The notes under the pieces: model-generated
Databases searched by the model: none
Told to the model about the DNA's origin: nothing
What the model saw: only the letters and a program-made list of their open reading frames with translations
Shown: in pieces, positions 52,530-54,429 of the stretch
Numbering within the stretch: position 1 is the stretch's first letter
Layout of the letters: each line of letters opens with the position of its first letter
Source: Deferribacter desulfuricans SSM1
Lineage (GTDB): Bacteria; Chrysiogenota; Deferribacteres; Deferribacterales; Deferribacteraceae
Assembly: GCF_000010985.1 (NCBI RefSeq)
Contig: NC_013939.1
Span: 1,579,501-1,643,500, forward strand
Direction of reading: 5' to 3'
DNA: 64,000 nt
Program-made: the position numbers and the translations under genes

Positions 52530-52660
52530 AATCAAGACTATTACCCAATAAAATGTGATATTTTGAGATTGCTTCGCCGACTCTCGCAATGTCGGCTTTT
52601 TTGGGTCATTGCGAGGCAACAAAAGTTGCCGAAGCAATCTCAAATTAAACTATTACTCAA
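52530..52660. repeat. Dispersed palindromic repeat, copy 7
   Basis: Perfect 15-base outer arms TTTGAGATTGCTTCG / CGAAGCAATCTCAAA (52562-52576 and 52630-52644) enclose CTCGCAATG / CATTGCGAG (52582-52590 and 52607-52615). Located between convergent genes. Confidence 0.85.
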
Positions 52661-52671
52661 CTTTTTAATTC

Positions 52672-53025
52672 TTATGCATTAGAATTTGCAAAATTAACAA
52701 TTTTCACAAATATTTCATCAACATCTTCTTCACCCCAAGAAACAGGTTTACCATTTATCGATACATAAGGAAGGGGTAACCTATTTTCAACAATCGTATT
52801 AACATCATCGATATAATCAAGAACTTCTGGTGTTGAAATATCTACATATTTAAAGTCAACACCATCCAAACCAAACTCTTTGGTCAATTTCGCATCAAGT
52901 TTTTTCGCAATTTCAAAGTATGGATCTTCACTCTCCCCGCAACCTGCAGGAAAATAAGAAGGGCTTCACCCAGAAACAAAATCCATACTGGAGCCAAATA
53001 ATCTTATTTTCATTTTCTCACTCAT
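52672..53025 (-). CDS. Predicted selenoprotein with thioredoxin-like fold (UGA-encoded Sec at residue 20)
   Basis: The gene has 118 codons from the ATG at 53023-53025 to TAA, read through one in-frame TGA (52966-52968). GTGAGGT lies eight bases before the ATG. The N-terminal half continues the same domain as the C-terminal half: strand KIRLFG, the motif SGUSPSYFPAGC with U20 and Cys29, helix DPYFEIAKKL, strand FKYVDIS, a second helix and LPLPYVSING, where a cis-Pro of a thioredoxin fold would lie. This layout recalls the YuzD-like redox family, in which a CxxC takes the place of the U. A SECIS-like hairpin follows the TGA. It starts three bases after the purF stop and is probably co-transcribed. 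A recent nonsense mutation is the alternative. Confidence 0.75.
52926..52962 (-). promoter_or_regulatory. Candidate bacterial SECIS element
   Basis: On the minus strand a 9-bp stem UUUUCCUGC / GCGGGGAGA (52946-52954 and 52932-52940, with G-U pairs) closes an AGGUU loop (52941-52945). A lower CUUC/GAAG stem flanks it. The loop begins 20 bases after the UGA. E. coli fdhF has an AGGUCU loop at a similar distance; the GGU in the loop is what SelB recognises. Confidence 0.7.
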
Positions 53026-53028
53026 AAT

Positions 53029-54429
53029 TTATACCTCACTTTTTGGATTAATACCTAAACCATCTTTATGCAATGTTGGATATTTACCGCTGAAACACGC
53101 ATCACAAAAACTAAAAGGTTTTACACACTCATGCATCCCTTCCAAGCTTAAATATGCAAGAGAATCAGCAGTAATATATTTTCTTATCTCCTCTATCGTA
53201 TGATTAGATGCTATCAACTCACTTCTAGTGGGTGTATCAATACCATAAAAACATGGGTAACAGGTCGGTGGAGAAGAAATTCGCATATGAACCTCTTTTG
53301 CTCCAGCTTCTTTTAGCATTTTAACAATTTTCCTACTAGTTGTACCTCTTACAATAGAATCGTCAACCACAACAACCCTTTTCCCTTCTATAACACTTCT
53401 CACAGCATTGAGCTTCAGTTTAACACCAAAATGTCTAATAGATTGAGCAGGTTCAATAAATGTTCTACCCACATAATGGTTTCTAATTAACCCCATAGCA
53501 TAAGAAATTTTACTATATTCAGAATAACCGAGTGTAGCAACAACTCCAGAATCAGGCACAGGAATTACAACATCAGCATCAACTGGACTCTCTTCTGCAA
53601 GTTTCATCCCAAAACTTTTTCTTACCTCATATACACTTTTTCCAAAAATTCGACTATCAGGTCTGGCAAAATATATAAACTCAAATATACATGGAGTTGG
53701 ATTTACATTTTCAAAAGGCCTTATACTTTGTAAACCATCATCCTTTATAATGACCATTTCTCCAGGATCTATCTCTCTAATAAACTCTGCATCTATTAAA
53801 TCCAACGCGCACGTTTCGCTAACTAAAACATGACCAGACCTAATTTTACCCAAAATAAGCGGTCTAAAACCGTTTGGGTCTCTTAAGCCAATAAGCATAT
53901 CTTTTGTCATAAAAATAAGGCTAAAAGCACCTTTCAACTTACTAACACTACTAATTATTGCATCTATCAGATTATCTTTACCAGATTTTGCCATCAAATG
54001 AATCACTATTTCACTATCTGAAGTTGAAGTAAAAATAGATCCATCTCTTACAAGATCATCCCTCAACTTTTCGGCGTTTACTATATTTCCGTTATGAACT
54101 AAAGCAACCTGTCCCAAATTTATATCTGCAACAATCGGTTGGGTATTTTTCAACAAAGATTCTCCAGAAGTTGAGTACCTGTTATGTCCAATAGCTATAT
54201 CACCAGGTAACCTTTCTAAAGTATGTTTTTTAAAAATATCGGCCACCAAACCAAGCCCTTTTTCAACCCTTATTATATGTCTATCAGAACAGGCTATACC
54301 AGCACCTTCCTGCCCCCTATGCTGAAGAGCATAGAGTGATAGATACACCAAATTGGCTGCATCTTTGTCGCCAAATACACCAGCTATACCGCATTCTTCG
54401 TGAAATTTATCAAATATCATTTCATCCAT
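53029..54429 (-). CDS. purF: Amidophosphoribosyltransferase
   Basis: First step of purine synthesis: transfers glutamine ammonia to PRPP. The N-terminal nucleophile Cys13 ([10 protein letters not shown]) follows a short propeptide that is presumably cleaved. GHNRYSTSG, the PRPP motif [14 protein letters not shown] and cysteines in [15 protein letters not shown] and FCDAC are present, the pattern of the [4Fe-4S]-containing Bacillus-type enzyme. Its start overlaps purL by 13 bases. It is the last recognisable purine gene of the operon purSQLF. Confidence 0.95.

Follow-up and report, generated by a model that had tools for sequence, protein, structure and literature searches.

A probable thioredoxin-fold selenoprotein, distantly related to DUF1462, encoded directly behind purF in Deferribacter desulfuricans

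We analysed a stretch of 64,000 nucleotides from the genome of Deferribacter desulfuricans SSM1 (hereafter the window) and found that a small gene within it very probably encodes a selenoprotein with a thioredoxin-like fold. On genomic grounds, the insertion of selenocysteine (Sec, U) at codon 20 of this gene is nearly certain, and the best reading of the window protein is that it represents a new family of thioredoxin-fold selenoproteins.

The frame comprises 117 codons and ends with TAA, the only interruption being a TGA at codon 20, in the motif SGUSPSYFPAGC (Table 1). The sequence thus bore out the frame, coordinates, length, motif and TGA position given in an earlier note on this DNA. Only two frames in the window had a comparable layout and the other one was unrelated, which places the layout seen here beyond chance. 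The gene is the last in a purS-purQ-purL-purF series (PurS was checked, purQ and purL were assigned by eye). As the note had described, its ATG lies 3 nt past the purF stop (53029); the ribosome site that the note had placed after purF is in fact a GAGG within the last purF codons, not beyond them. Purine-rich sites were also present 5' of most orthologues. The note's expectation that a gene caller would retain just 71 codons, from a TTG, agreed with the ordinary ORF list. Just 3' of the gene, an inverted repeat occupies 52559-52647, the two 24-nt arms being 88% complementary. It resembles a repetitive palindromic element and may have a part in termination.

Table 1. Position of the candidate selenoprotein gene and associated features in the window
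Feature	Position	Strand	Remarks
Candidate selenoprotein gene	52672..53025	-	117 residues, Sec predicted at 20, DUF1462/YuzD-like thioredoxin-fold domain
TGA codon for residue 20, predicted Sec	52966..52968	-	TGA in orthologues and paralogue; Cys in SA0798 and L111
Cys29 codon, proposed resolving Cys (U-x8-C)	52939..52941	-	Kept in all orthologues, not in paralogue L044
SECIS-like hairpin, 7-bp stem, GGU loop (52944-52942)	52935..52951	-	Fold, covariation, codon bias
Shine-Dalgarno-like GAGG	53034..53037	-	8 nt 5' of the ATG, within the purF 3' end
purF	53029..54429	-	Upstream neighbour at every orthologous locus; Cys of the B. subtilis [4Fe-4S] ligands retained
71-codon fragment, TTG start	52672..52887	-	Ordinary ORF list

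The genome (2,542,933 bases, two contigs) was searched for the Sec machinery, as the earlier note had proposed, and selA, selB, selC and selD were all present. The tRNA-Sec (selC) scored 67.4 bits against a cut-off of 47 and was also called by ARAGORN, with anticodon tca. The scores for selB, selA and selD were 318, 518 and 328 bits, respectively, and selA and selB were adjacent. Like known Sec-containing SelD, the selD gene has an in-frame TGA near its own N-terminus (L018 1481-1800, motif KAAGUAAK), followed by a strong hairpin with a stem of the same size as that of the window gene. Because of this TGA, Sec appears to be used in at least one further gene of the genome.

Orthologues were found in 19 of the 51 genomes of the phylum, at 20 loci. 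Each of these contained one TGA, always at the same aligned residue, and was directly preceded by purF. A profile search of the 51 genomes disclosed no members beyond these loci and L044 (G023:C2:132646-132975), a 23%-identical TGA paralogue with the motif CTSGUMP, which lacks Cys29 and lies away from purF; its hairpin has the same stem and loop sizes as those of the orthologues. In one genome (G025), purF and the selenoprotein gene occurred twice, on separate contigs (C7 and C16). Five weak profile matches (L062, L063, L072, L114 and L115) were set aside, each falling inside a long ORF that belongs to another protein; L074 and L075 were rejected for lack of credibility. An apparent TGA inside purF of G017 was out of the purF frame. 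No match was found to plasmids by tblastn with the window protein and a protein of the second phylum described below, and viral contigs contained no relative of the window protein.

The gene is kept in nearly every Sec-using species of the phylum. With selA being detected in 20 of the 51 genomes, both genes were found in 18, neither in 30, and the 3 discordant genomes were one with the gene and no selA (G013, 87% complete), one with selA in which neither the gene nor purF was found (G015, 88% complete), and a Sec-decoding one with selA and purF in which the selenoprotein gene was missing (G050). No Cys version was found 3' of purF in 13 genomes devoid of the gene (12 without selA, plus G050), nor any Cys orthologue within the phylum, so that the case for Sec/Cys exchange rests on distant relatives. 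As the earlier note had anticipated, residue 20 corresponds to a TGA in all orthologues and to Cys in the distant SA0798 and L111; a sense codon other than Cys, which the note had named as contrary evidence, was not met at any of the 20 loci. Decoding of the TGA as another amino acid, e.g., Trp through a reassigned or leaky code, found no support and is extremely unlikely, since the gene tracks selA across the phylum, adjacent genes are read in the standard bacterial code, and distant relatives show Cys, not Trp, at this site.

Among orthologues, pN/pS was 0.29 before the TGA; from the TGA to the TTG it was 0.35, and past the TTG 0.38. Low values on either side of the TGA fit translation of the whole stretch as one protein. 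The in-frame stop, taken alone, might point to a pseudogene or a sequencing error at codon 20, but this is refuted by conservation, the same TGA being present in 19 genomes under purifying selection, and its probability is negligible. A true stop, yielding a 19-residue peptide and a separate 71-codon protein starting from the TTG, would match the output of a standard ORF caller; we consider it very unlikely, because the constraint persists between TGA and TTG, an in-frame start 3' of the TGA is missing or not comparable in several orthologues, the TGA is never exchanged for TAA or TAG among orthologues, and a hairpin with compensatory changes lies behind it.

This hairpin, found right after the TGA of each orthologue, consists of a 7-bp stem and an apical loop of 3 nt (GGU or GGC), and thus has the G-containing loop expected of a SECIS; in the window gene, the loop starts 21 nt past the TGA. 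In an alignment of 17 sequences, 93.3% of the cells were paired, compared with 40-56% when the partner was slid, and two-sided changes were observed at two stem pairs (C-G/U-A and G-C/A-U). None of 500 shuffles, which ignore relatedness, reached as high a covariation score. One stem pair was mismatched in 6 of the 17 sequences, the energy z-scores of single-sequence folds were modest (about -1 to -3), and an Rfam search gave no match to a SECIS family at the hairpin. Further evidence was provided by the choice of codons at synonymous sites of the stem: Gly was encoded by GGG in 18 of 19 cases (12% elsewhere in the gene) and Pro by CCC in 13 of 19 (14% elsewhere), while the Ala, Ser or Thr codon ended with A in 19/19.

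The window protein is supported, by profile comparison and a predicted structure, as a thioredoxin-like domain and a distant relative of DUF1462/YuzD, a group classified as thioredoxin-like (PMC3091736). Its score with PF07315 (DUF1462) was 23.4 bits, under the Pfam gathering cut-off of 25, while the G013 orthologue reached 25.7 bits and 15 of 20 family members matched at E values up to 0.1. A PDB search with the single window sequence returned nothing relevant. The family profile retrieved 1xg8 (S. aureus SA0798) with an E value of 0.001, and a wider profile matched it over the domain with an E value of 4.6e-8, aligning the Sec with a Cys of SA0798. The AlphaFold2 model (mean pLDDT 79.3) showed the element order E-H-E-H-E-E-H, the active-site loop being poorly modelled (pLDDT <50 for most of residues 16-32). 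Its top Foldseek match was again 1xg8, with TM scores of 0.57/0.61 and an rmsd of 6.0, indicating that the likeness is topological rather than close. The beta-alpha-beta-alpha-beta-beta-alpha order of the thioredoxin-like fold and its conserved Pro before the third strand (P86) are thus both found; the CxxC or UxxC of classical thioredoxins is absent, the window protein having U-x8-C. U20 and P22 were invariant, and P86 nearly so, across two phyla. The profile match and the model uphold the earlier claim that the two sides of the TGA form one thioredoxin-like domain, and the Cys aligned in SA0798 and L111 places the TGA where, as also claimed, a redox-active Cys is expected.

Searching distant genomes with PF07315 led to L073, in a genome (G381) of another phylum, probably a Herpetosiphon-like member of the Chloroflexota. 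L073 is a DUF1462-like frame with a TGA in the motif SCGYGUGP and a hairpin with a 7-bp stem and a 3-nt loop. G381, the sole host of the second phylum examined for selA, has this gene. Matches were found in 11 of 400 genomes of this phylum, each of the 11 with a match containing one TGA (L092-L102); these are apparently unlisted selenoproteins. One genome (G656) had a second match, L103, with an uninterrupted frame. The motifs are GUGP or AUGA, SECIS-like hairpins were present in the members that were folded, and the Cys/Sec spacing is C-x3-U or C-x4-U, not U-x8-C. Outside the main genus, identity fell to 22-25%, with U followed by GP (or GA) being kept. Two members scored above the Pfam cut-off for DUF1462 (43.1 and 29.1 bits). 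In another lineage, the frame of L111 (G328) is uninterrupted and has Cys (SCCGP) where the others have Sec. L111 and L112 (G258) are small Cys-rich relatives (FPCGPQSSCCGPIGQSEEE), and a further DUF1462-like frame, L113 (G173), has neither Cys nor TGA at the active-site position.

As to the mechanism, UGA codon 20 would be read as Sec by SelB and tRNA-Sec under the direction of the following hairpin. The Sec would lie in the loop past strand 1, with the conserved Cys nine residues on; Sec20 would attack a disulfide or an oxidised thiol, and Cys29, kept in all orthologues, would resolve the intermediate. The location of Sec20 at the SA0798 Cys site, the conservation of Cys29 and the presence of P86, at a position typical of the thioredoxin cis-Pro, favour a selenol-thiol oxidoreductase, and judging from these sequence features the product is likely a thiol/selenol oxidoreductase. 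In paralogue L044 and in the second phylum, the partner Cys precedes the Sec, so that the position of the resolving residue has apparently shifted between groups.

The main functional rival to this role is metal binding: the Sec protein might bind a metal or metalloid, as an ArsD-like chaperone would, or deliver a cofactor, rather than exchange disulfides. ArsD structures were indeed among the weak Foldseek matches, one second-phylum relative (L101) had a weak Pfam match to ArsD (E 0.008), L112 lies directly 3' of an arsenite-methyltransferase-like gene, and paralogue L044 is devoid of Cys29. Yet it is DUF1462/1xg8 rather than ArsD that matches best, the orthologues lie behind purF, and no ars gene was noticed beside the window gene. 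Metal binding therefore seems quite improbable.

In an alignment, the PurF encoded in the window has Cys at the positions of the four [4Fe-4S] cluster ligands of B. subtilis PurF. PurF of the B. subtilis form is an oxygen-sensitive Fe-S enzyme. With these Cys retained and purF linked to the gene, maintenance of an Fe-S enzyme, here the upkeep of oxygen-sensitive PurF, is a reasonable guess. That PurF is the client of the selenoprotein is rather doubtful when judged from gene order alone. We are equally hesitant about the broader view of an unlisted superfamily of DUF1462-like selenoproteins, spread over at least two phyla, that in the Deferribacter phylum would serve to keep the Fe-S amidotransferase PurF reduced or intact; if this is true, purine synthesis would be coupled to the supply of selenium. 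The strict linkage with purF makes a connection between selenium and purine synthesis testable.

The claim of the earlier note that the selenoprotein was undescribed agrees with an inventory published in 2026 (PMC13188914): the protein is missing from its 119 families and subfamilies of prokaryotic selenoproteins, among which there is no entry for DUF1462, PF07315 or YuzD. A 2022 review (PMC9312934), when searched, likewise gave no such entry. NCBIfam 20.0 had no matching model for the window protein and none near the cut-off, and we found no prior description in the open-access literature on DUF1462, YuzD and selenoproteins of Deferribacter or Herpetosiphon. With the present gene, the prokaryotic catalogue of roughly 119 families would grow by one, whose genes annotation pipelines truncate. 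It suggests that selenium use is possible in DUF1462-like proteins and predicts a catalytic role for the aligned Cys of YuzD/SA0798.

Compared with DUF1462/YuzD proteins (PF07315; SA0798, 1xg8), the window protein shares a thioredoxin-like fold, a similar length and the order of structural elements, and differs by its Sec and its U-x8-C motif. It has about ten extra residues past the Sec motif in comparison with the members of the second phylum. With ArsD metallochaperones it shares a thioredoxin-like fold and a weak structural similarity (Foldseek), the similarity in sequence being very weak and confined to L101; furthermore, ArsD belongs to arsenic operons, whereas the orthologues of the window family stand behind purF. 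In the known thioredoxin-fold selenoproteins (Trx, Grx, Prx-like, SELENOW-like, SaoT and UXX-star, among others; PMC13188914, Table 1), Sec likewise occupies a redox-type loop and is likewise decoded through selABCD and a bacterial SECIS, but UxxC or CxxU prevails among their motifs and none of them is listed as DUF1462-like.
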